Origin: Alphaproteobacteria bacterium
GTDB lineage: Bacteria; Pseudomonadota; Alphaproteobacteria; CACIAM-22H2
Reading direction: 5' to 3'
Assembly: GCA_016793045.1 (NCBI GenBank)
Contig: JAEUKZ010000124.1
Coordinates: forward strand, 1 to 41,567
Length of the DNA stretch: 41,567 nt
Both the position numbers and the translations under genes were made by a program. Numbering within the stretch: position 1 is the stretch's first letter; each line of letters opens with the position of its first letter. Shown here piece after piece: positions 9,172-21,305 of the stretch. The notes under the pieces were generated by a model. That model worked only from the letters and a program-made list of their open reading frames with translations. It did not search any database and was not told the DNA's origin.

Positions 9172-9738
9172 ATGAAGATCATCGGCAGCGCCATTCGCGC
9201 CGGCAACATCATCGAAGTTGACGGCCGCATCTTCCAGGTCATCAAGCACAACATCGTGCAGCCGGGGAAGGGCGGAGCCTTCAACCAGATCGACATGCGC
9301 GACATCAAGACCGGAACCAAGACGAACATGAAGTTCCGGTCGGACGAGACCGCCGAGCTGCTGCGCGTCGACGAGAAGGAGCTGCAGTACCTCTTCCACG
9401 AAGGCGACCAGTACACCTTCATGGACCAGGAGAGCTACGAGCAGGTCACCGTCAACCGCGACATGATCGGCGACCCGGCGGATTTCCTCGTCGACAACAT
9501 GATGGTCACGATGAACTTCATCGAGGGCAACCCGGTTGCCGTGAAGCTCCCGCAGACCACCGTGCGCACGATCGTCGAGGCCGACGCGGTGGTGAAGGGG
9601 CAGACCGCCTCGTCCTCCTACAAGCCCGCCGTTCTCGACAACGGCGTGCGCGTGATGGTGCCGCCCTTCATCGGCGCCGGCACGAAGATCGTCGTCAACA
9701 TCGACGAGCGCGCCTACGTCGAGCGCGCCAAGGATTGA
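9172..9738 (+). CDS. efp: Elongation factor P
   Basis: A 188-residue translation factor of normal length that rescues ribosomes stalled on polyproline. The N-terminal KOW-like domain carries the modifiable lysine, Lys33, at the loop tip in IVQPGKGGAF, corresponding to the beta-lysylated lysine in E. coli EF-P. Two OB domains follow, ending with VPPFIGAGTKIVVNIDERAYVERAKD, the typical C-terminus. No EpmA/EpmB modification genes lie in the window. The neighbouring envelope genes encode very proline-rich proteins (runs of PPPP), which are classic EF-P clients; that link is inference. Confidence 0.97.
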   Translation: MKIIGSAIRAGNIIEVDGRIFQVIKHNIVQPGKGGAFNQIDMRDIKTGTKTNMKFRSDETAELLRVDEKELQYLFHEGDQYTFMDQESYEQVTVNRDMIGDPADFLVDNMMVTMNFIEGNPVAVKLPQTTVRTIVEADAVVKGQTASSSYKPAVLDNGVRVMVPPFIGAGTKIVVNIDERAYVERAKD

Positions 9739-9749
9739 GCGGCCGATAG

Positions 9750-10559
9750 ATGGCCGCCCGCTCCGCGCTTTTCACCGTCATGGAACGCGCCGCCCGCAAG
9801 GCGGCGCGCAGCCTCGTGCGCGATTTCGGCGAGGTCGAGCAGCTCCAGGTCTCGGTCAAGGGGCCGGGCGACTTCGTCTCGACCGCCGACCTGGCGGCGG
9901 AGCGCACCCTGCGCGAGGAACTCCACAAGGGGCGCCCGACCTACGGCTTCCTCATGGAGGAAAGCGGCGACAGCGCCGGCGACGGCCATCACCGCTGGAT
10001 CGTCGATCCGCTCGACGGCACGACCAACTTCCTCCACGGCATCCCGCATTTCTGCATCTCGATCGCGCTCGAGCGCGACAAGCAGATCGTCGCCGGGCTG
10101 ATCTACGATCCGATGCGCGACGAGATGTTCTGGGCGGAGAAGGGCCACGGCGCCTACGTCAACGACCGCCGCATGCGCGTCTCCGCACGCAGCAAGCTCG
10201 ACGACGCGGTGATCGGGACCGGCATTCCGTTCCGCGAGCGCGGCGACCATCCGCGCTACCTGGCGATGCTCGAGGCGGTGATGGGCAAGACCGCCGGGGT
10301 GCGCCGGATGGGGGCGGCGGCGCTCGACCTCGCCTACGTCGCGGCCGGCCGCTATGACGGCTTCTTCGAGTTCGGCCTGTCGCCCTGGGACGTCGCCGCC
10401 GGGATCGTCATCATCCGCGAGGCCGGCGGGTTCGTCGAGGCGCTCGGCGGCAAGGGCGACCCCCTCAACGACGGGTCGATCGTCGCGGCGACCGACCGCC
10501 TCCTCAAGCCGCTCGGCGAGACCCTTCTCGCCGCCGCGGCGGCGCATGATCGCGGCTGA
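9750..10559 (+). CDS. suhB: Inositol monophosphatase family protein
   Basis: A 269-residue Mg-dependent phosphatase of the SuhB/IMPase family. Metal and substrate motifs are all present: MEESGD near residue 70, WIVDPLDGTTNFLHGIPHF near 87-105 and SPWDVAAGIVIIREAGG near 210-226. It lies 11 bases after efp, an arrangement I recall as common in alphaproteobacteria, and is probably co-transcribed. Substrates in the family include inositol phosphates and related sugar phosphates; SuhB also acts with the transcription machinery in enterobacteria. Which role applies here cannot be told. Confidence 0.92.
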   Translation: MAARSALFTVMERAARKAARSLVRDFGEVEQLQVSVKGPGDFVSTADLAAERTLREELHKGRPTYGFLMEESGDSAGDGHHRWIVDPLDGTTNFLHGIPHFCISIALERDKQIVAGLIYDPMRDEMFWAEKGHGAYVNDRRMRVSARSKLDDAVIGTGIPFRERGDHPRYLAMLEAVMGKTAGVRRMGAAALDLAYVAAGRYDGFFEFGLSPWDVAAGIVIIREAGGFVEALGGKGDPLNDGSIVAATDRLLKPLGETLLAAAAAHDRG

Positions 10560-10621: not shown

Positions 10622-13108
10622 ATGTTGTATCTCAAGATGGATCGCGATCCTATCCGTGGGGTACGGGAACGGTTGGGCATCGTGCGCGTTGCGCGCGCTG
10701 TCGCGTTCACCAGCATCATTGCGCTGTCGATCGGCTTCGCCGACAAGGCATCGGCGCAGTCGCGGAGTCGTGCCGGCAGCGTCGACGTCGACTGGTCGGT
10801 GCTTGACGATCTCGGCGGCGCCCGCGGCGCTCGCGACGTCCGCCAGCGTTCCGCCGCGCCGCGTGCCGTCCGTGCGGCGCCCCGCCGCGTCGCGCCGGCT
10901 CGTGCCCAGACGACGACCGAAGCGCTCGACCGCCTCGCCGCCGCGATCGCCGCGCAGACCGCAGAGCTCCAGCGCATCCGCGAACAGGTTGCCTCGACGC
11001 CGAGCAGCGAGCTCGACCAGCTGCGCCAGCAGGTCCAGCAGCAGGGGCAGGAGATCGAGCGGCTCCGCGTCTCTGGCCGCATTCGCGAGGATCGTCCGGC
11101 CGGCGAAGCCGCCGCGGCGCCGCGGGTGCGCACTCCGCGCGTGCGTGACGACTACGCGATGGCGCCGCCGGTCGGCCGTGCCGTCGGTCCGGCGACCAGC
11201 CCCTTTGCGCCGCTCGCCGGCCGCATGGGCAACAGCCAGTATGCGACTTCGGGCCCGGTCGATCCCAGCCTGCTCGCCGCCCCGATCGGAAGCGAGACGC
11301 CTGAAGTCGGCGCCGCGGCGCCGTATGCGCCACCGGGCGCGGTGACGCCGAGCTATCCGGCCGGCGTCGTGCCGCCGCCGCCGATGGCCGGCGGGTCGCT
11401 TGCCGGCCGCTTCGGCAACAGCCAGTACGCGACGTCGGGTGCCGTCGATCCGGCGCTGCTGCAGGGGGGCGCGAGCGCAGCCGTGCCGGCCTATCGCGGC
11501 GCCCCGCCGCCGATGGGGGGCGACCTTCCTGCGATGCCCAGCGGACGGGGGATGGCGCCCGGGCAGCTGGGTGCGCCGGGCGCACGCACGCCGGTGCCCT
11601 CGATCATTGCCGGCCAGGATTACGGCGTGCCCGCGCTCGAAACGCCCGGTCCGCCGGGCGGCGGCGGGGCTGCCGCCGGCCGCGACTACGCAATGGCCGC
11701 TGCGCCGGCGCCGCGCGCGTCGGGCGGCGCGCTCGCCGGCCGCTTCGGCAACAGCCAGTACGCGACCTCCGGCGCGGTCGATCCGGCGCTGCTCGCCGGC
11801 GGCGGCGCGGGCGCGGTGCCGCCGCCTGCCATGGGCGGCGGGTCGCTTGCCGGCCGTTTCGGCAACAGCCAGTACGCGACGTCCGGGCCGGTCGATCCGG
11901 CGCTGCTCGCCGGTGGTGACGCCGGCGCCGTGCCGCCGCCACCGGAAATGGGCGCGCGCGCGCCGTTTCCGCTGCCGCCGGTCGGCCAGACCGTCGGCGC
12001 GCCGGCTTCGGCGCGCGCCGACATTCCGCCGCCGCCGACGCTCACGCCCAACGCCGCGCCGTCGGCCGCCGGCACGCGCACGCCGTTGATGGCGCCTCCC
12101 ACCCTGTCGCCGCGCGCGCCGCTGCCGGCGCCGAGCGTGGCGCGCGCCGACATTCCGCCGCCGCCGGATCTCGTGGGCGGCGGCGCGCAGCCGGTGCGTC
12201 CGCTGCCGCCGTTCCCGACGACGAGCGACATTCCGGCGCCGCCGGTCATGGCGCCGGCACCCGGCACCGCGCGCGCCGTTGCACCCGACCAGACCCGCCA
12301 GGCGCGCGTGGCGCGCGGCACCGCCACCGTGCCCGAGCCGGTCCGCCGTACCGCCGCGCCGCGGACCCCGGTGACACGCGAGCCGATTCCGCCGCCGCCG
12401 ATCGCCAGCAGCGCGCCGGGCGTTTCGGACGCCGCACCGGTGGCACCGCGCGCCCTGCCGGCGACGCCGCCGGCTCCGGCCGCGCCGCTCGCAACGCCCG
12501 CCATTCCGCCGCCGCCGAGCCCGACGGCAACGCCGCCGGCACCCGTCGCGCCGCCGGTCGCCGCGGCCCCGCCGAGCCCGCCGCCGGCACCGCTGGCGAC
12601 CCCGCCGGCGCCGCCAGCGCCGCCAAGCCAGGTCGCGGCCGCGCCGCCGCCGCCGGTCACCCGCAGCGTCGTTCCGTCATCGCCTCCTCCTGCGCCCCCG
12701 CCGGCTCCGCCTGCCGCCGTTGCGCCGCCGGCCCCGGCGCCCACGACGCAGATGGCGGCCGTGCCCGTCGCGGTCGCGGCCGGCAACGCAGTCGCGCGCG
12801 TCGATTTCTCGAACGGCCAGGCGGAACTCGCCGATCCCGGCAAGCGCGCCCTCGATCGTGCGGTTGCCGAACTGCAGCGCGACCAGAACGCGCGGCTGCA
12901 GCTCGTCGCCTACGCCACCGGCGGGTCGGGCGACGATGGCGGCTCGGTGGCGCGGCGCTTGAGCCTCAGCCGCGCGCTCGCCGTCCGCGCCTACCTGATC
13001 GAGCAGGGCATCCGCGCCACCCGCATGGACGTGCGCGCGCTTGGCAACCGCGGCGCCGACGGCAGCCCTGCGGGCGACCGGGTCGACGTCGTGCTGGTGC
13101 GGCGTTGA
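10622..13108 (+). CDS. Proline-rich OmpA-like envelope protein with four internal repeats
   Basis: An exported 828-residue protein. Order: signal peptide ending near KASAQS (about residue 46); a short coiled coil (about 95-150, LDRLAAAIAAQTAELQRIREQV); four near-identical repeats LAGRxGNSQYATSGxVDPxLL starting at residues 198, 260, 371 and 409; and a long Pro/Ala-rich region (440-720) with recurrent IPPPP motifs. A C-terminal OmpA-like domain (723-828) keeps RRLSLSRALAVRAYLIEQGI but lacks the usual TD peptidoglycan-binding aspartate motif, having YATGG instead. The start is uncertain: ATG at 10622 has no clear ribosome site, and ATG 10637 or GTG near 10682 would also leave a good signal peptide. 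It sits between efp-suhB and a MotA/MotB-like pair. Likely an envelope protein tethered by its C-terminal domain; function unknown. Confidence 0.85.
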   Translation: MLYLKMDRDPIRGVRERLGIVRVARAVAFTSIIALSIGFADKASAQSRSRAGSVDVDWSVLDDLGGARGARDVRQRSAAPRAVRAAPRRVAPARAQTTTEALDRLAAAIAAQTAELQRIREQVASTPSSELDQLRQQVQQQGQEIERLRVSGRIREDRPAGEAAAAPRVRTPRVRDDYAMAPPVGRAVGPATSPFAPLAGRMGNSQYATSGPVDPSLLAAPIGSETPEVGAAAPYAPPGAVTPSYPAGVVPPPPMAGGSLAGRFGNSQYATSGAVDPALLQGGASAAVPAYRGAPPPMGGDLPAMPSGRGMAPGQLGAPGARTPVPSIIAGQDYGVPALETPGPPGGGGAAAGRDYAMAAAPAPRASGGALAGRFGNSQYATSGAVDPALLAGGGAGAVPPPAMGGGSLAGRFGNSQYATSGPVDPALLAGGDAGAVPPPPEMGARAPFPLPPVGQTVGAPASARADIPPPPTLTPNAAPSAAGTRTPLMAPPTLSPRAPLPAPSVARADIPPPPDLVGGGAQPVRPLPPFPTTSDIPAPPVMAPAPGTARAVAPDQTRQARVARGTATVPEPVRRTAAPRTPVTREPIPPPPIASSAPGVSDAAPVAPRALPATPPAPAAPLATPAIPPPPSPTATPPAPVAPPVAAAPPSPPPAPLATPPAPPAPPSQVAAAPPPPVTRSVVPSSPPPAPPPAPPAAVAPPAPAPTTQMAAVPVAVAAGNAVARVDFSNGQAELADPGKRALDRAVAELQRDQNARLQLVAYATGGSGDDGGSVARRLSLSRALAVRAYLIEQGIRATRMDVRALGNRGADGSPAGDRVDVVLVRR
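11213..11911 (+). repeat. Four dispersed coding repeats (about 66 bp each)
   Basis: Copies start at 11213, 11399, 11732 and 11846, each about 66 bp and encoding LAGR(M/F)GNSQYATSG(P/A)VDP(S/A)LL. They differ mainly at synonymous positions and are separated by variable Gly/Pro/Ala linkers of 40 to 110 residues, except for the close last pair. This looks like old duplication kept under protein-level selection. Confidence 0.9.
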
Positions 13109-13206
13109 TTCGCGGCGGTCAATTTCGTACGGGACGCTAGCGGCACGAGCGACGACGATCTCCGGGGGCCGACGGCGTGCGAGGGAACGACAATGGTGAC
13201 CAGCGC

Positions 13207-14376
13207 ATGACCGGCCCGCGTCTCTACCTCGTTCGCATGATCGTCTTTCTGGTCGTGGTGTGCGCGGTGGCGATCGCGCTCGCGCCCGGACTTGTTCCCG
13301 CCTATCTCCACCATCCGGCGCTCAACACGCTGATCCTCGGCGTGCTCGTTCTCGGCATCGCCTACAACATCCGCCAGGTCCTCTCGCTCAAGCAGCAGGT
13401 CGAGTGGATCGAGCGTTTCCGCGCCGGCGATCCGCGCGTGACGGCGCAGAACGCGCCGCGGCCGATCGCCGCGATGGGCGCGATGCTCGGCGAGCGGCGC
13501 GGCCGCATCAGCCTGTCGGCGGCGGCGTCGCGCTCGATCCTCGATTCGATCGGTTCGCGGCTCGACGAGGCGCGCGAGATTTCGCGCTATCTCATCGCGG
13601 TGCAGATCTTCCTCGGGCTGCTCGGCACGTTCTGGGGGCTGCTGCAGGTGGTCGGCGGCGTCACCGGCGTGATCTCCAGCCTGTCGGCCTCGCGCGACAT
13701 CGGCGCGCTGTTCAACGATCTCCAGGCCGGACTCCAGGTGCCGCTCGCCGGCATGGGAACGGCCTTCGGCACGTCGCTGTTCGGCCTCGCCGGCTCGCTC
13801 GTGCTGGGCTTCCTCGATCTGCAGTCGAGCCAGGCGCAGAACCGATTCCACAACGAGCTCGAGGAATGGCTGTCGAGCCTGACGCGGCTCGGCGGCGGCC
13901 CGTCGATCGGCGACGGCGAGCAGCCGGCGCCCGCCTTTCTCCAGGCCCTGATGGCGCAGACCGCCGACAACATCGAGGCGCTCCAGCGCACGATGTCGCG
14001 TTCGGAGGAGGCGCGCACGCAGTCGAACCAGACGATCGCCGCCGTGGTCGAGCGGCTCGACCTGTTCACGGATCAGATGCGGACCGAGCAGTCGCTGATG
14101 ATGAAGCTGGCCGAAGCCCAGGCGGAGCTGCGGCCGGCGCTCGCGCGTCTCGCCGATCCGGCCGGCGGCACGCTCGGGCTCGACGACGCGACGCGCCTGC
14201 ACATCCGCAATCTCGACCTGCACCTGCAGCGGCTCAACGAGCGCACCGAGGCCGGCTTCAACCGAATGACCGACGAGCTGCGCGCCGAGATCCGCCTGCT
14301 GGCGCGCACCATTGCGGCGATGGCCGAGGACGACCGGCAGGACCGCGCGCCGCAGATGACCGACCCCGCACGATAG
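13207..14376 (+). CDS. MotA/TolQ/ExbB-like proton-channel membrane protein
   Basis: A membrane protein of 389 residues from ATG 13207; an in-frame GTG at 13177 would add ten. Two N-terminal helices (LYLVRMIVFLVVVCAVAIAL and LNTLILGVLVLGIAYNI) are followed by a cytoplasmic segment. Then comes the paired-helix core typical of MotA/TolQ/ExbB: FLGLLGTFWGLLQVVGGV and GMGTAFGTSLFGLAGSLVLGFL, with conserved threonines that line the ion path in the family. A long cytoplasmic C-terminal part (about 160 residues) is coiled-coil rich. The next gene, ten bases on, encodes a MotB-like partner with the matching membrane aspartate, so together they probably form an ion-driven stator-like complex. Not a flagellar motor gene by context. 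Confidence 0.85.
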   Translation: MTGPRLYLVRMIVFLVVVCAVAIALAPGLVPAYLHHPALNTLILGVLVLGIAYNIRQVLSLKQQVEWIERFRAGDPRVTAQNAPRPIAAMGAMLGERRGRISLSAAASRSILDSIGSRLDEAREISRYLIAVQIFLGLLGTFWGLLQVVGGVTGVISSLSASRDIGALFNDLQAGLQVPLAGMGTAFGTSLFGLAGSLVLGFLDLQSSQAQNRFHNELEEWLSSLTRLGGGPSIGDGEQPAPAFLQALMAQTADNIEALQRTMSRSEEARTQSNQTIAAVVERLDLFTDQMRTEQSLMMKLAEAQAELRPALARLADPAGGTLGLDDATRLHIRNLDLHLQRLNERTEAGFNRMTDELRAEIRLLARTIAAMAEDDRQDRAPQMTDPAR

Positions 14377-14385
14377 GGCCTGCCG

Positions 14386-16410
14386 ATGGCGTCCCTCTCG
14401 CGCCGCCGCAGCCAGGGCCCCGACGTCTGGCCGGGATTCGTCGACGCGCTCGCCACGCTGGTGATGGTCGTCGTGTTCGTGCTGATGGTGTTCACGATCT
14501 TCCAGTTCTACCTGAAGGACGTGATCTCCGGCCGCGACGAGGAACTCGGCCGCCTGCGCAGCGATCTCGCCCAGCTCACCGACGTGCTGGTCGGCCAGCG
14601 CAGCGCGATGACCGACCTCGACCAGCGCCTCGCGAACACGACCACGCAGCTGCGCGACGCGCAGGCGACGCGCGAACGCCTGCAGAGCGAGCTTGCCGCG
14701 GCCGGCGACATGCGCAACCGCCTCACCGCCGAGCTGGCCGCGACCACCGCGCGGGCGGAGTCTGCCGAAGAGAATGCGGAGCGCACCGCCGAGGAACTCG
14801 AGGCCGCGCGCCAGGCGCTCGGCGCCGCGCAGACGACGATCACCGCCGACCGCGCGCGCATCGAGCTGCAGCTCGGCGAGCTGGCGGAGCTGCGTCGCGG
14901 CATCGAGAGCCTGACGACGCTGCGCACCCAGCTCGAGGCCCGCATCGCGGCGCTCGACGGCGAACTCGCCCAGCGTCGCAGCGAGCTTGCGCAGACGCGG
15001 TCCGACCTCGGCCGCAGCGAGCAGGCGCTCGCCGCCGAACGCGAGGAGGCGGCGCGCGGCCGCCGTCTGACCGCCGAACTGCAGTCCAACGTCACGCAGG
15101 TGCGCGCCGAGCTTGCCGCGCAGATCGCCGAACTCCAGCGCGTGCGTGCCGCGCTTGCGGCGGAGGCGGCGGAGGCCGAGCGCCGCCGCGCCGCCGAGCA
15201 GGAGCTGTCGCGCCAGCTCGACCAGATCCGCGTCGCCCTGATGCGTTCGACCGGCGAGGTCGCGGAATCCCGTCGCTCGCTCGCGGCCGAGGAGCGCGCA
15301 CGCACCGAGGCGCAGCGCGCCGCGGCAGCGGAGCAGAGCGCGCGCACCGCGGCAGAGCGCGCGCTCGCCGATCAGCGGACGGCAAGCGAGCGCGCGCTGG
15401 CGGAGGCGCGCGAGGCGAATGCGCGTGCGCTGGCCGAGGCGCGTGCGGCGGGCGAGCGCACGCTGGCCGAAGCGCAGCGCGCCGCGGCAGCGGAGCAGAG
15501 CGCGCGCGCCGCGGCCGAACGCGCGCTCGCCGATCAGCGTGCGGCGAGCGAACGTGCGCTGGCGGAGACGCGCAGCGCGAGCGAACGGGCCCTGGCGGAG
15601 GCGCGCGAGGCGAATGCGCGTGCGTTGGCCGAGGCCCGGGCGGCGGGCGAGCGCACGCTCGCCGAGGCGCAGGCCGCACGCGAGGCGGACGCGCAGGCGA
15701 TGGCGGCGCGCGAGCGCGCGCTGACGGAACAGCGCGCCGCCAGCGAGCGGGCGCTCGCCGAAACCCAGGCCGCGCGCGTGGCGGGCGAGCGCCGCGCGGC
15801 GACGCTCGCCGAGCAGGTGGCGGCGCTGCGCGTCGAAATCGAGCGCCTCGCCGGCGCGCTCGGCAGCGACCAGGCGCGCATCGCCGAGCAGGGCCAGCAG
15901 ATCACCGATCTCAACCGCCAACTTTCGGCCGCACTCGCCAACCGCGTCGAGGAATTGACGCGCTACCGCTCCGAGTTCTTCGGGCGGCTGCGTGCGGTCT
16001 TCGAGGGCCGGCCCGGGATCCGGATCGAAGGCGACCGCTTCATCCTCGAATCCGAGATCCTGTTCGCCGTCGGCTCGGCGGAAATCGGCATCGGCGGGCT
16101 CGACCAGCTCGACCGTGTCGCCGACACGCTGCGCGAGCTGATCGCGCAGATCCCGCCGGAGCTCAACTGGGTGCTCCAGATCGAAGGCCACACCGACCGC
16201 CGCCCGGTCGCCGGCCGCGCCTTCCGCTCGAACTGGGAGCTGTCGGCGGCGCGGGCGATCTCCGTCATGCGCTTCCTCGTCGATCGCGGCATCCCGACCG
16301 ACCGCATCGCGGTCGCCGGCTTCGGCGAGTTCCAGCCGATCGACCGCAGCGACACCGATGCGGGCTACGCGCGCAACCGGCGCATCGAGCTCCGCTTCAC
16401 CGCGCGGTGA
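14386..16410 (+). CDS. MotB-like OmpA-domain protein with very long periplasmic coiled coil
   Basis: A 674-residue protein. A short cytoplasmic tail leads to one helix, WPGFVDALATLVMVVVFVLMVF, whose Asp20 at the start of the helix corresponds to the proton-binding aspartate of MotB/ZorB-type proteins. About 450 residues of uninterrupted coiled coil follow (50-500), with an 11-residue periodicity in residues 324-464. A canonical OmpA domain (about 530-674) ends it: FAVGSAEIG, IEGHTDRRPV, NWELSAARAISVMRFL, with the TD and Arg residues that bind peptidoglycan. It overlaps the CAP-protein gene by four bases (GTGA). If fully extended the coil would be near 65 nm, longer than the periplasm, so it probably folds back. 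Confidence 0.88.
   Translation: MASLSRRRSQGPDVWPGFVDALATLVMVVVFVLMVFTIFQFYLKDVISGRDEELGRLRSDLAQLTDVLVGQRSAMTDLDQRLANTTTQLRDAQATRERLQSELAAAGDMRNRLTAELAATTARAESAEENAERTAEELEAARQALGAAQTTITADRARIELQLGELAELRRGIESLTTLRTQLEARIAALDGELAQRRSELAQTRSDLGRSEQALAAEREEAARGRRLTAELQSNVTQVRAELAAQIAELQRVRAALAAEAAEAERRRAAEQELSRQLDQIRVALMRSTGEVAESRRSLAAEERARTEAQRAAAAEQSARTAAERALADQRTASERALAEAREANARALAEARAAGERTLAEAQRAAAAEQSARAAAERALADQRAASERALAETRSASERALAEAREANARALAEARAAGERTLAEAQAAREADAQAMAARERALTEQRAASERALAETQAARVAGERRAATLAEQVAALRVEIERLAGALGSDQARIAEQGQQITDLNRQLSAALANRVEELTRYRSEFFGRLRAVFEGRPGIRIEGDRFILESEILFAVGSAEIGIGGLDQLDRVADTLRELIAQIPPELNWVLQIEGHTDRRPVAGRAFRSNWELSAARAISVMRFLVDRGIPTDRIAVAGFGEFQPIDRSDTDAGYARNRRIELRFTAR
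15355..15777 (+). repeat. In-frame hendecad repeat with a duplicated 54-residue block
   Basis: The DNA encodes successive 11-residue units such as ERALADQRTAS, ERALAEAREAN, ARALAEARAAG and ERTLAEAQRAA. A 162-bp block starting at 15307 is repeated at 15469 with few changes, and one extra 33-bp unit (ERALAETRSAS) in the second copy shifts later matches to 195 bp. Unequal recombination of 33-bp units explains the pattern. Confidence 0.85.
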
Positions 16411-16925
16411 GCCGCACGCAGACGATGGCGCCGCAATTCCCGCTTCGACGCGACGTGCTGCGGGCGTTCGCGCTTGCCGGCTTCGCGCTCGTGCCCGGCG
16501 GTGCGCGCGCGGCGGAGGATCCGGGCTTCGAGCGCGCGATGATCCAGGCGCTCAACCGGATCCGCCGTGAGCATCGCCTGCGCACGGTCGCGGCGGAGCC
16601 GCGCCTCTCCGCCGCGGCGCTCGACCATGCGCGCGACTGCGCGGCGCGGCGCGACATCGATCACCGCGGCCGCGACGGCAGCGGCGTCGACGACCGCGTG
16701 GCGCGCCGCGGCTATCGTTTCGTGGTGGTCGCGGAGAACCTCGCGGCCGGACTCAAGGACGCGGAGGCGGCCGCGGCGGCGTGGATGGGCAGCGAGAGCC
16801 ACCGCCGCAACATGATCAATCCCGACGTCACCCAGGCCGGCGCGGCGCGCGTCATGGCACTCGATGCCGCCGACCCGTATCGCACCTACGACGTGCTGGT
16901 GCTGGGAATGCCGCGGCGCAGCTGA
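16407..16925 (+). CDS. Secreted CAP-domain (SCP/PR-1-like) protein
   Basis: A 172-residue exported protein started by a GTG that overlaps the stop of the MotB-like gene (GTGA). A basic N-terminus and hydrophobic helix (LRAFALAGFALVPGGARA) form a signal peptide. The CAP domain follows with the usual four-residue constellation: His in ALDHARDCA, Glu in VVAENLAAG, and Glu and His in GSESHRRNM. Bacterial CAP proteins are secreted and their activity is mostly unknown; some are linked to the envelope or to spore coats. Tight linkage to the motor-like pair suggests a shared envelope role. Confidence 0.87.
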   Translation: MSRTQTMAPQFPLRRDVLRAFALAGFALVPGGARAAEDPGFERAMIQALNRIRREHRLRTVAAEPRLSAAALDHARDCAARRDIDHRGRDGSGVDDRVARRGYRFVVVAENLAAGLKDAEAAAAAWMGSESHRRNMINPDVTQAGAARVMALDAADPYRTYDVLVLGMPRRS

Positions 16926-17012
16926 CGGCCGGATGCATCGGCGGCCGCAGCCGCGCCGCCAAGCTTCGTTCCGCGAATAAGCCGATCGAGCCGCCCGTTG
17001 TGGATGCAGGCG

Positions 17013-17049
17013 CGGGCCCTGTGGCCCGGACGCGCGCATGCTTGCGCGC
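17013..17049 (+). other. Two adjacent small hairpins ahead of the MuiA-family gene
   Basis: CGGGCC-CTGT-GGCCCG (17013-17028) and GCGCGCA-TGCT-TGCGCGC (17032-17049) are perfect 6- and 7-bp stems in the 150-base gap after the CAP-protein gene. They end 14 bases before the ribosome site of the next gene. They may end upstream transcription or shape the leader; there is no T run. In DNA this GC-rich, chance hairpins are common. Confidence 0.25.
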
Positions 17050-17075
17050 CGCCGCAATTGCCCAGGGAGGCAGAG

Positions 17076-18860
17076 ATGCAGTCTCGCAGGACGATGTTCC
17101 GGATCGTCGCCGCCGGCGTCATGGCGGCGTCCGCGGCGGTGCCGACGAGGGGCGCCCGCGCGCAGGCGGCGCCGCAGCCGCAGGTGCCGTCGCGCGGGCC
17201 CGTGCGCATCGACGTCGATGCGCGCCCGGTCGCTGCGACCGTCTATGCCGACCAGGCGACGGTGACGCGCGGCGGCCGCATCGAGATTCCCGCCGGCAGC
17301 AGCGTGCTGGTGCTGCGCGGCGTGCCCGCCGGCCTGATCGCCGACAGCATCAATGCCAGCGGCCGTACGCCGGGCCGTGTCGACATCGGCGGCGTCGACG
17401 TGCGCCCAGCCACTTTCGATCGCAGCTCGTCGCATCGCCGCCGCGGCGAGATCGAGGCGGCGCTGCGCGAGATCGACGATGCCGTCGCTGCGCTCGAGGT
17501 GCGCCAGACCGTCTACGCCGCGCAGCAGACGATGGTCGACCGCATCGCTGCCGCGTTCGTCGAATCGCAGCGCCGCCCGCCGGCGCCGACCAACACGACC
17601 GGCGCCAACGATGCGGCGCCGCAGTTCATCCAGAATCCCGCGGGCTGGCGCAGCGCGTGGGAAACCGTCCGCCAGGGCACCGAGGAGGCGGCCGAGGCGC
17701 TGCGCCGCGTGCGGCTGGAGCGGCGCGATCTCGAAACCCGCCGAACCGCGCTGCAGGCCGAACTCGCGTCGCTCGGCGCGCCGCCGGCGCGCGGCACGTT
17801 CGAGATCGCCGTCGCGGTCCAGGCCGAGGAGGCGACGACGCTCGACCTCGCCGTCAGCTACCAGGTGCGCGGCGCGGCGTGGCGTCCCGTCTACGAGGCG
17901 CGGCTCGACACCGCGGCCTCGCGCGTGGCGCTGCGCCAGGAAGCCGTCGTCACGCAGTCGACCGGCGAGGACTGGGACGACGTGGCACTGACCTTGTCGA
18001 CCGCGCGGCCTTCGCAAGGCACGCAGATCCCGCAGCTCTCGCCGTGGCGGATCACGCTGACGCCGCCCGCTCCGGCGCCTCGTCCTCCGCCGGCGATGCA
18101 GATGATGCGCCGAAGCGATCAGCCGGCGGAGCCGCGCGCCGGCCAGGCCGCCGTCGATGCGCTGCAGGGCCGCAGCGAGGTTGCGCAGCGCGAGGCGGAG
18201 ATCGCCGCGGCGACGGTCGCTTCAGCCGGCTTCGCGGTCGAATACGCGATTCCCGGCACCGCGTCGGTGCGTTCCGACGGGACGGAGCGGCGCGTGCGCA
18301 TCGCCGAAATGCCGGTGGAGGCCAAGATGCTGGTGCAGATCGTGCCGCGCGTCGACCGCCGCGCGATGCTGCGCGCGAGCTTCGCAAGCCCCGCGACGGT
18401 GCCGCTGCTGCCGGGGCAGGCGTCGCTGTTCCTCGACGGCGTTCTCGTCGGCCGCGCGCCGGTGCCGATGCTGCGGCCGGGCGAGGAACTGGCGCTCGGC
18501 TTCGGCGCCGACGATCGCATCCGCGTCAGCTATGCCGTGCAGGCGCCGCGCCGGAGCGAAGGCGGCGGCATGATCTCCGGCCGCACGGTCACCGTCACCA
18601 ACGAGGCGGTGATCACGGTGCGCAGCTTCCACGAGCGGCCGGTCGAGGTGACGGTGGTCGATCAGGCGCCGGTGTCGGCCGACGAGAGCCTGAACGTGAC
18701 CCTGATCGCCGATCCCGCGCCGACGGTGCGCGACTTCGAGGATCGTCCCGGCGTCCACGCCTGGATCGCGACCTTCGAGCCGCGCGGCGAGCGCCGCATC
18801 CGCTTCGGCTACGCGATCACGTCGCCGCGCGACGGCACGGTCTACGGGATGGTGCGCTGA
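17076..18860 (+). CDS. MuiA-family protein (DUF4140/DUF4139)
   Basis: A 594-residue exported protein. A signal peptide (FRIVAAGVMAASAAVPTRGARAQ) precedes an N-terminal DUF4140-like domain (about 45-150, AATVYADQATVTRGGRIEIPAG) and a helical coiled segment (about 120-240). A C-terminal DUF4139 beta-rich region has the typical VSYQVRGAAWRPVYEARLD and STGEDWDDVALTLSTARPS. The ATG at 17076 follows AGGGAGG. The family is named after a Streptomyces mucoidy inhibitor, but its molecular role is unknown. It stands alone on its transcript or trails the envelope cluster. Confidence 0.9.
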   Translation: MQSRRTMFRIVAAGVMAASAAVPTRGARAQAAPQPQVPSRGPVRIDVDARPVAATVYADQATVTRGGRIEIPAGSSVLVLRGVPAGLIADSINASGRTPGRVDIGGVDVRPATFDRSSSHRRRGEIEAALREIDDAVAALEVRQTVYAAQQTMVDRIAAAFVESQRRPPAPTNTTGANDAAPQFIQNPAGWRSAWETVRQGTEEAAEALRRVRLERRDLETRRTALQAELASLGAPPARGTFEIAVAVQAEEATTLDLAVSYQVRGAAWRPVYEARLDTAASRVALRQEAVVTQSTGEDWDDVALTLSTARPSQGTQIPQLSPWRITLTPPAPAPRPPPAMQMMRRSDQPAEPRAGQAAVDALQGRSEVAQREAEIAAATVASAGFAVEYAIPGTASVRSDGTERRVRIAEMPVEAKMLVQIVPRVDRRAMLRASFASPATVPLLPGQASLFLDGVLVGRAPVPMLRPGEELALGFGADDRIRVSYAVQAPRRSEGGGMISGRTVTVTNEAVITVRSFHERPVEVTVVDQAPVSADESLNVTLIADPAPTVRDFEDRPGVHAWIATFEPRGERRIRFGYAITSPRDGTVYGMVR

Positions 18861-19194: not shown

Positions 19195-20982
19195 TCAGCC
19201 CGCCGCCGCCTGCTCGAACTGCAGCTTCGCAAGCCGTGCGTAGAGACCGCCCTCGGCGATCAGCGCGCCATGCGTGCCGCTGGCGACCATGCGGCCCTGG
19301 TCGAGCACCAGGATGCGGTCGCTGCGCAGCACCGTCGCGAGCCGGTGCGCGATCACCAGCACCGTGCGGTTGGCGGACAGCCGGTCGACCGCCTGCTGGA
19401 CGAGGCGCTCGCTTTCCGCGTCGAGCGCGCTGGTCGCCTCGTCGAGCAGCAGCAGCGGCGGGTCGCGCAGGATCGCGCGCGCGATCGCGATGCGCTGGCG
19501 CTGCCCGCCGGAGAGAAGCTGGCCGCGCTCGCCGAGCAGCGTCTTGTAGCCTTCGGGCAGGCGGTCGATGAACTCCGCCGCCTGTGCGGCCTCGGCGGCG
19601 CGGCGGACCTCGTCGTCGCTCGCGCCCGGGCGGCCGAAGCGGATGTTCTCGGTGACGTCGGCGGCGAAGATCACCGGCTCCTGCGGGACGAGGCCGATGC
19701 GCGCGCGCAGCGCCGCCGGGTCGGCCCTGGTCGCGTCGACGCCGTCGATCCGCACGATGCCGGCGTCCGGGTCGTAATAGCGCAGCAGGAGCTGGAACAC
19801 CGTCGTCTTGCCCGCACCCGACGGCCCGACCAGCGCCACGCGCTCGCCCGCGGCGACCGCGAAGCTGAGGCCGTCGAGCGCGCTGCGCTCGGGCCGCGAG
19901 GGATAGGCGAAACGGACGTCCTCGAACGCGACGGTGCCGAGCGGCGGCGCGGGCAGCGCCTGCGCGATCGCCGGGGCGGCGATCGCGGGCCTGGCGTCGA
20001 TCAGCTCGAACAGCCGTTCAGCCGCGCCCGCCGCGCGCTGCATCTCCGAGGCGAATTCGGACAGCGAGCCGACCGAGCCGGCGACGAGGGCGGCATAGAA
20101 GATGAACGCCGAAAGCTGCCCGGCGCTGATCGAGCCGTTGATCATCTCGTGCCCGCCGAGCCACAGCACGATGCCGATCGCGCCGAACACCAGCAGCATC
20201 GCCGCCGCGGCGAAGCTCGCGCGCGCCGCGGCGAGCTTGACCGCGGCGTCGAACACGTCGCCGACGCGCGCGCCGAACTGGGCGCGCGAGCGGTCCTCGT
20301 GGTTGAAGGCCTGCACCGTGCGGATCGCGCCGACGACCTCGTCGAGATCGGCGCCGACGGCGGCGACGCGCGCCTGCGTCTCGCGCGAGAGCCGGCGCAC
20401 GCGCCGGCCGAACACGACGATCGGCACGACGACGATCGGGACGACGAGGCAGGCGAGGGCGGTGAGCCACGGCGAGGTCACGACCATCATCGCGACGCCG
20501 CCGATGACCGTGAGCAGGTTGCGCGCCGCCATCGAGGCGGACGATCCCATCACGCCCTGGACGACCGTCGTGTCGGCGGTCAGGCGCGAGACGATCTCGC
20601 CCGAGCGGCTCTTGTCGTAGAAGGCCGGAGACAGCCGCACCAGGTTGTCGAACACGGCGCGGCGCAGATCGGCGGCGACGCGTTCGCCGATCCAGTTGAC
20701 CAAGTAGGCGCGCAGGAACGTCGCCGCCGACATCACGGTGACGAGCACGAGCAGGCCGACCAGCGCCTGGTCGAGCCGCTCGACCGCGGCGCGCGTCATG
20801 CCCTCGTCGATCAGCCAGCGCAAGCCCGCGCCGAAGCCGAGCAGCGTCACCGCGGCGAGCACGAGCCCGGTCGCGGCGCCGAGGATCTGGCGCGCATAGG
20901 GTGCGCCGAAGCGCGCCAGCCGCAGCAGGATGCGCAGGTCGGTCGAACGCGGCGGCGTCGGTGCGGCGGTCGGTTCGGCCAT
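19195..20982 (-). CDS. ABC exporter, fused membrane and ATPase domains (MsbA-like)
   Basis: A 595-residue half-transporter with six membrane helices in residues 30-330 and an ATPase domain after 350. ATPase motifs: Walker A GPSGAGKTT, signature LLSGGQRQRIAIARAIL, Walker B PLLLLDEATSALD and switch histidine in VIAHRLAT. It works as a homodimer that exports lipids, drugs or other hydrophobic compounds. Lipid A flippase MsbA is one possibility, but ABCB-like multidrug exporters look the same from sequence. The ATG at 20982 lies two bases after the cyaY stop, so cyaY and the exporter are co-transcribed. Confidence 0.92.
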   Translation of the reverse strand: MAEPTAAPTPPRSTDLRILLRLARFGAPYARQILGAATGLVLAAVTLLGFGAGLRWLIDEGMTRAAVERLDQALVGLLVLVTVMSAATFLRAYLVNWIGERVAADLRRAVFDNLVRLSPAFYDKSRSGEIVSRLTADTTVVQGVMGSSASMAARNLLTVIGGVAMMVVTSPWLTALACLVVPIVVVPIVVFGRRVRRLSRETQARVAAVGADLDEVVGAIRTVQAFNHEDRSRAQFGARVGDVFDAAVKLAAARASFAAAAMLLVFGAIGIVLWLGGHEMINGSISAGQLSAFIFYAALVAGSVGSLSEFASEMQRAAGAAERLFELIDARPAIAAPAIAQALPAPPLGTVAFEDVRFAYPSRPERSALDGLSFAVAAGERVALVGPSGAGKTTVFQLLLRYYDPDAGIVRIDGVDATRADPAALRARIGLVPQEPVIFAADVTENIRFGRPGASDDEVRRAAEAAQAAEFIDRLPEGYKTLLGERGQLLSGGQRQRIAIARAILRDPPLLLLDEATSALDAESERLVQQAVDRLSANRTVLVIAHRLATVLRSDRILVLDQGRMVASGTHGALIAEGGLYARLAKLQFEQAAAG

Positions 20983-20984
20983 CG

Positions 20985-21305
20985 TCAGTCGAAGCGGATG
21001 TCGCTGCCGCTGATCTGCGCGAGCTCGGTCGCCAGGACGTCGGCGAGGATGGCGCCGCCGCGGGTCGAACGCCACGCCCGGGCGGCGTCGTCCCAGGCGT
21101 AGTGCGAGGCGCCGGACAGCGGCGAGGAAAGCCAGATCTGCCGGTTGGGCGCGTGCTTGTTGACGACGTACTGCCGGCCGTCGTCGAACTCGATCGTGAG
21201 GATGCCGCCGCGCAGGTCGACGTCGGCGTCGAGCGCATCCTCGATGCGCGTCATGAGGCCGCGCAGGGTTTCCTCGGCCAGGGTTTCGAAGGCGCGTTCA
21301 TCCAT
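20985..21305 (-). CDS. cyaY: Frataxin-family iron donor protein
   Basis: A 106-residue frataxin homologue that binds iron and tunes iron-sulfur cluster assembly. Typical features are the acidic first helix (DERAFETLAEETLRGLMTRIEDALDADVDL), strand GILTIEFDDGRQYVVNKHAPNRQIWLSSP, and HYAWDDAARAWRSTRGG. The ATG at 21305 has GGAG before it; an in-frame ATG at 21383 would add 26 residues of non-family sequence. It is directly upstream of the ABC exporter. Confidence 0.93.
   Translation of the reverse strand: MDERAFETLAEETLRGLMTRIEDALDADVDLRGGILTIEFDDGRQYVVNKHAPNRQIWLSSPLSGASHYAWDDAARAWRSTRGGAILADVLATELAQISGSDIRFD

Follow-up and report, generated by a model that had tools for sequence, protein, structure and literature searches.

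Two-gene channel complexes of the MotA/TolQ/ZorA superfamily are known from the flagellar stator (MotA/MotB), the Tol and Ton systems (TolQ/TolR and ExbB/ExbD) and the Zorya anti-phage system (ZorA/ZorB). In Zorya, the cytoplasmic extension of ZorA is required (PMC11890865), and in a 2025 phylogeny of MotAB and its relatives, the non-flagellar B subunits were reported to lack an OmpA-homologous domain (PMC12505986). Here, a gene pair of this superfamily, encoding a channel protein (A) and a partner with an OmpA domain (B), is described from a 41,567-nucleotide stretch of contig JAEUKZ010000124.1 (assembly GCA_016793045.1, an alphaproteobacterium of the lineage CACIAM-22H2), which as a whole is referred to as the window. 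With ZorA/ZorB, the pair shares the two-gene plan of a channel and a peptidoglycan anchor, with a membrane Asp and an OmpA domain on B; with MotA/MotB, the MotB-type OmpA domain and a single transmembrane (TM) helix with an Asp on B; and with TolQ/TolR and ExbB/ExbD, the channel fold and the GLLGTxWG motif of A. It differs from the Zorya pair in its short, variable A tail, its very long B coil and its widespread housekeeping locus instead of a defence island, and from the flagellar stator in a B coil of hundreds of residues and a flagellum-independent distribution. Unlike in the Tol and Ton pairs, B ends in an OmpA domain and not in a TolR/ExbD domain, so that the A/B family is a widespread counter-example to the statement on non-flagellar B subunits in the 2025 phylogeny. 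On balance, we favour the reading that the pair is a third, non-flagellar and non-Tol ion-driven motor of the 5:2 type, in which a stiff shaft would couple ion flow to the cell wall in an envelope role.

The pair comprises the following features in the window:

13207-14376, + strand: A subunit gene; 389 residues, four-helix channel protein of the MotA/TolQ/ZorA superfamily with a helical cytoplasmic tail at about residues 243-380
14386-16410, + strand: B subunit gene; 674 residues, TM helix at about 15-42 (with Asp20), coil at about 45-529 and OmpA domain at about 545-674; NCBIfam PRK09039 group
14521-15972, + strand: DNA encoding the B coil (about residues 46-529), with hendecad (11-residue) tandem repeats at about 15340-15761

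Both genes are on the + strand and are separated by 9 nucleotides. The stator-like pair of open reading frames (ORFs) proposed in the first-pass annotation was recovered as described, with Asp20 in the sole membrane helix of B. Its interval of 13207-16925 correctly holds the pair, but the end at 16925 takes in a separate gene for a CAP/SCP-domain protein (16425-16925), and its account of the neighbours overlooked the adjoining upstream OmpA-domain gene (10622-13108). An open frame of 1066 residues (12991-16191, - strand) runs antisense to both genes and is likewise seen in many relatives; it is a GC-rich shadow ORF and no evidence for a gene.

Homologues of A were found in 46 of 61 relatives, and at nearly every locus the next gene is a B homologue, which excludes chance. 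In the class concerned, probably Alphaproteobacteria, 256 of 386 genomes carry the A gene (171 of 266 genera), and a phylum-wide sample gave A matches in 112 of 397 genomes, 7 of them outside the class. Named relatives are Bradyrhizobiaceae, Rhodospirillaceae, Taklimakanibacter and a few Lysobacterales, which point to Alphaproteobacteria as the class. At two loci (L078 and L086), a clear A homologue is not directly followed by any B gene recognisable as the WPGFVD type.

Channel fold and cytoplasmic tail of the A subunit

A structure model of A was made with AlphaFold2 and 45 homologues (predicted local distance difference test, pLDDT, 86.9). The modelled A is a membrane protein of four helices, with long ones at 105-158 and 165-225 and a cytoplasmic tail of two helices, and polar residues are found in TM3 and TM4 of the predicted channel, as in the superfamily. 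In a fold search against the PDB, the sole match with E<0.001 was type I ZorA (8vvn, E=5.7e-4), followed in rank by TolQ and ExbB, while flagellar stator chains first appeared at rank 49. At the sequence level, A is matched in part by the PADLOC ZorA1 model (E=5.5e-14) and scores 16.5 bits with NCBIfam ZorA_2, far below the cut-off of 100. A itself has no Pfam match, and neither Pfam MotA_ExbB nor the NCBIfam MotA models match it; 13 of the 45 A homologues do match MotA_ExbB. The motif GLLGTFWG, which contains Thr141, corresponds to GLFGTVWG in the TolQ of the same genome, and both Thr141 and Ser190 are invariant in the 45 sequences.

The closeness of A to ZorA by hidden Markov model and by fold, its two-helix tail and the need of Zorya for the ZorA extension raise the alternative of a ZorAB/MotAB-like direction, in which B would be a wall-fixed axle and movement of the A tails would act on a partner in the cytoplasm or register stress in the wall. 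This is considered unlikely, though it deserves serious attention. Conservation is weaker in the tail (information 0.55-0.56) than in the TM3/TM4 channel core (0.74-0.75), with no invariant or nearly invariant column past residue 237 among the 45 sequences. In addition, A is much shorter in several family members (down to about 267-315 residues), and beside the pair no conserved gene for a cytoplasmic effector was recognised. The weaker conservation of the tail makes a periplasmic output somewhat likelier than a Zorya-like cytoplasmic output.

Membrane aspartate, OmpA domain and coil of the B subunit

The single TM helix of B carries the motif WPGFVDAL, and its Asp20 is invariant in a 44-protein alignment and in 40 of 40 further homologues. 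Trp15 and Gly17 are also invariant, as are Gly601, His602, Asp604, Asn616, Ser620 and Arg623 of the OmpA domain. This domain is recognised by Pfam with E=2.1e-15, and its GHTD...N...LS..R motif is invariant or nearly so in the same alignment, which bears out the first-pass description of a canonical peptidoglycan-binding OmpA domain. Its fold resembles those of MotB, PA0833, TssL and OmpA. A TssL long-form protein with an OmpA anchor of the same type as B was observed at one related locus (L046, G000:C357), and judging from this sequence, the presence of a type VI secretion system in that genome is probable. The PADLOC ZorB3 model matches B in part (E=7.2e-22), and B exceeds the cut-off of NF006543 (NCBIfam, PRK09039.1-2, 'peptidoglycan-binding protein') with 370.9 against 305 bits. 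Five PRK09039 models are matched by all 44 of the B homologues scanned; PRK09039 is a name-only group, and variable coils are already implied by the lengths of its models (342-350 and 627).

Taken together, the conserved Thr and Ser of the channel, the membrane Asp and the wall-binding residues favour an ion-driven, wall-anchored motor. The long coil and peptidoglycan-binding domain of B would also suit a structural tether that links the inner membrane to the wall, with A as a mere mount and no ion flow. Such a tether is improbable, as the invariant Asp20, Thr141 and Ser190 are hard to account for without an ion path.

Coil length was gauged as the distance between Asp20 and a conserved SEFF motif that marks the end of the coil, the spacing of SEFF and DRF being fixed in 132 of 136 homologues. 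Each distinct length was counted once, which limits but does not abolish the effect of shared ancestry. In these 136 homologues, 66 different values of the span were recorded, from 138 to 619 residues (509 in the B of the window), and the coils range from 113 to 594 residues, equivalent to 17-88 nm, with a median of 31 nm. The coil in the window has about 484 residues and would measure about 72 nm as a straight helix. The great length noted in the first-pass annotation stands, with its figures of roughly 450 residues and 65 nm slightly low; the coil is not peculiarly oversized, as it falls within this continuum.

The coil lengths form a comb: of the periods scanned (2.5-16), 3.50 residues fits the 66 lengths best (R=0.69). 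When the lengths were jittered by up to 5 residues, none of 20000 trials exceeded 0.39, and the controls, the length of A (R=0.03) and the start-to-motif length of the upstream protein X described below (R=0.05), gave no such comb. An earlier measure, from Asp to GHTD, gave a weaker comb (R=0.40 in a second sample), and re-anchoring at SEFF cured its misreads. The length classes modulo 7, determined in the first sample, match -1 to +3 net four-residue stutters, which is the signature of heptads mixed with hendecads, and an 11-residue repeat is present in the coil of the window itself at about residues 291-470. The comb indicates that the B coil is continuous and in register. Since this register survives a roughly fivefold variation in coil length, a continuous stiff shaft is favoured over a loose tether.

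An antiparallel hairpin should favour steps of 14 residues. The lengths step by 3.5 and 7 with no preference for 14, and even and odd heptad counts are 18:18, which argues against a hairpin as the general fold; a fold-back hairpin was therefore ruled out as the general state, and the earlier claim that the coil must fold back is disfavoured. The shaft could stand at a tilt or run along the wall. A period of 3.5 residues is also shared with the arms of Smc, for which engineered arm lengths were functional with this period and force transmission was proposed (PMC5344682). This may serve as a precedent for such a shaft, not as proof. The period of about 91 residues known for Smc was not found in the B coils, and no Smc-like superhelical length quantisation (about 91-100 residues) was detected among the coil lengths.

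Conserved locus and separation from Tol, Zorya and the flagellum

In the usual order of the locus, efp and an inositol monophosphatase gene are located upstream of A. The neighbours in the window are:

9172-9738, + strand: elongation factor P gene (efp); conserved upstream neighbour, 83 of 124 loci
9750-10559, + strand: inositol monophosphatase gene; conserved upstream neighbour, 96 of 126 loci
10622-13108, + strand: candidate third component X; 828 residues, secreted, proline-rich, with a degenerate C-terminal OmpA-like domain
16425-16925, + strand: gene for a CAP/SCP-domain secreted protein; not conserved with the pair and probably outside the system

The statement that no flagellar or Tol genes are nearby is true of the window, and both systems are encoded elsewhere in the genome. 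Its own TolQ exceeds the TIGR02796 cut-off, with a TolR match adjacent and TolB also present, and a flagellar MotA1 over its cut-off, a MotB-like protein and FlhA were found. Kinship within the superfamily and these tol genes could suggest that the pair is a TolQ/TolR variant serving a Tol-Pal system encoded elsewhere. This is quite improbable, as the genome already has its own TolQ and adjacent TolR, B carries an OmpA domain instead of a TolR/ExbD domain, and the locus lies outside any tol or ton operon, with efp and the phosphatase gene, not tol genes, as its conserved neighbours.

A diverged Zorya system or an accessory flagellar stator, to which the ZorA and ZorB model matches and the flagellated genome might point, is very improbable, as PADLOC scans of 20 other ORFs of the window gave no ZorC-, ZorD- or ZorE-type gene, A recurs in many genomes at a conserved chromosomal locus, as a mobile defence island would not, no MotA or MotB model exceeds its cut-off, flagellar linkage is absent and, among 61 genomes, A occurs without FlhA in 16 (10 of these at least 90% complete) and FlhA without A in 9. 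The first-pass view of a non-flagellar, non-Tol module with a ZorA/ZorB-like plan and no defence genes thus agrees with the separate TolQ/TolR and MotA1, with the independent variation of FlhA and A, and with the ZorA1 match and ZorA as best PDB fold. One further PADLOC match in the window, mad3 on 19195-21075, was rejected, being an ABC transporter by Pfam.

In about half of the loci (65 of 91 by motif, 54 of 130 by tblastn), a homologue of X separates A from the phosphatase gene, and X is the foremost candidate for a third partner. Its degenerate OmpA-like domain has a ARRLSLSRALAVR motif and lacks the canonical Asp, and its proline-rich part contains repeated 'AGRFGNSQYATSG(A/P)VDP' segments. 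The CAP gene was ruled out as a partner, as tblastn homologues were found in 4 loci only; its product weakly resembles the model of the divisome lipoprotein DalA (64.6 bits, cut-off 200). Further downstream, at 16998-18860 on the + strand, a protein of the MuiA family (mucoidy inhibitor, DUF4139/DUF4140) is encoded, which exceeds the cut-off of NCBIfam TIGR02231. In the Lysobacterales contigs (L033, L034 and L035), the pair follows the end of an apparent hrpB-type helicase gene instead of efp and the phosphatase gene, and the upstream OmpA-like gene is absent; the pair in this group looks like a transfer out of the main class.

Proposed coupling of ion flow to the cell wall

In the favoured motor, the channel formed by A, probably pentameric, would surround a dimer of B. 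Ions would pass Asp20 of B and the ring of Thr141 and Ser190 of A, and A and B would turn relative to each other. The coils of the B dimer would run in parallel as one unbroken shaft (about 72 nm in the window, 17-88 nm in the family), tilted or placed along the wall and ending in the OmpA domain, which its conserved residues suggest is bound to peptidoglycan. Ion flow across the inner membrane would then be coupled mechanically to the cell wall in a housekeeping role in the envelope.

Several points weigh against this motor. The TM-scores of A against ZorA are modest (0.34 and 0.54), so that superfamily membership with ZorA as the nearest relative is indicated and orthology to ZorA is unproven, and a sequence profile of A searched against the PDB found no channel, only coiled-coil noise. 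The single-chain model of B has three long helices, and the coil may truly be interrupted where confidence is lowest, at about 193-217 and 367-376. Within f23, the longest-coil family, the lengths follow the comb less tightly (R=0.46, n=12 lengths). Finally, the conserved register shows a continuous coiled coil, yet it is no proof of torque transfer.

No functional study of the pair or of the PRK09039 group was found in the literature searched, from which subscription papers and preprints were excluded; the papers on Rgs and DalA concern other proteins. A motor-like complex present in about two thirds of the class genomes sampled has no described function in that literature, and the length comb makes it testable whether B transmits twist or merely tethers. 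It is a tentative possibility, and a doubtful one at present, that most of the class carries an unrecognised third rotary motor, in which a register-locked shaft of tens of nanometres would deliver torsion or stepwise motion to distant peptidoglycan, and to X where present, for example in wall remodelling or tension.

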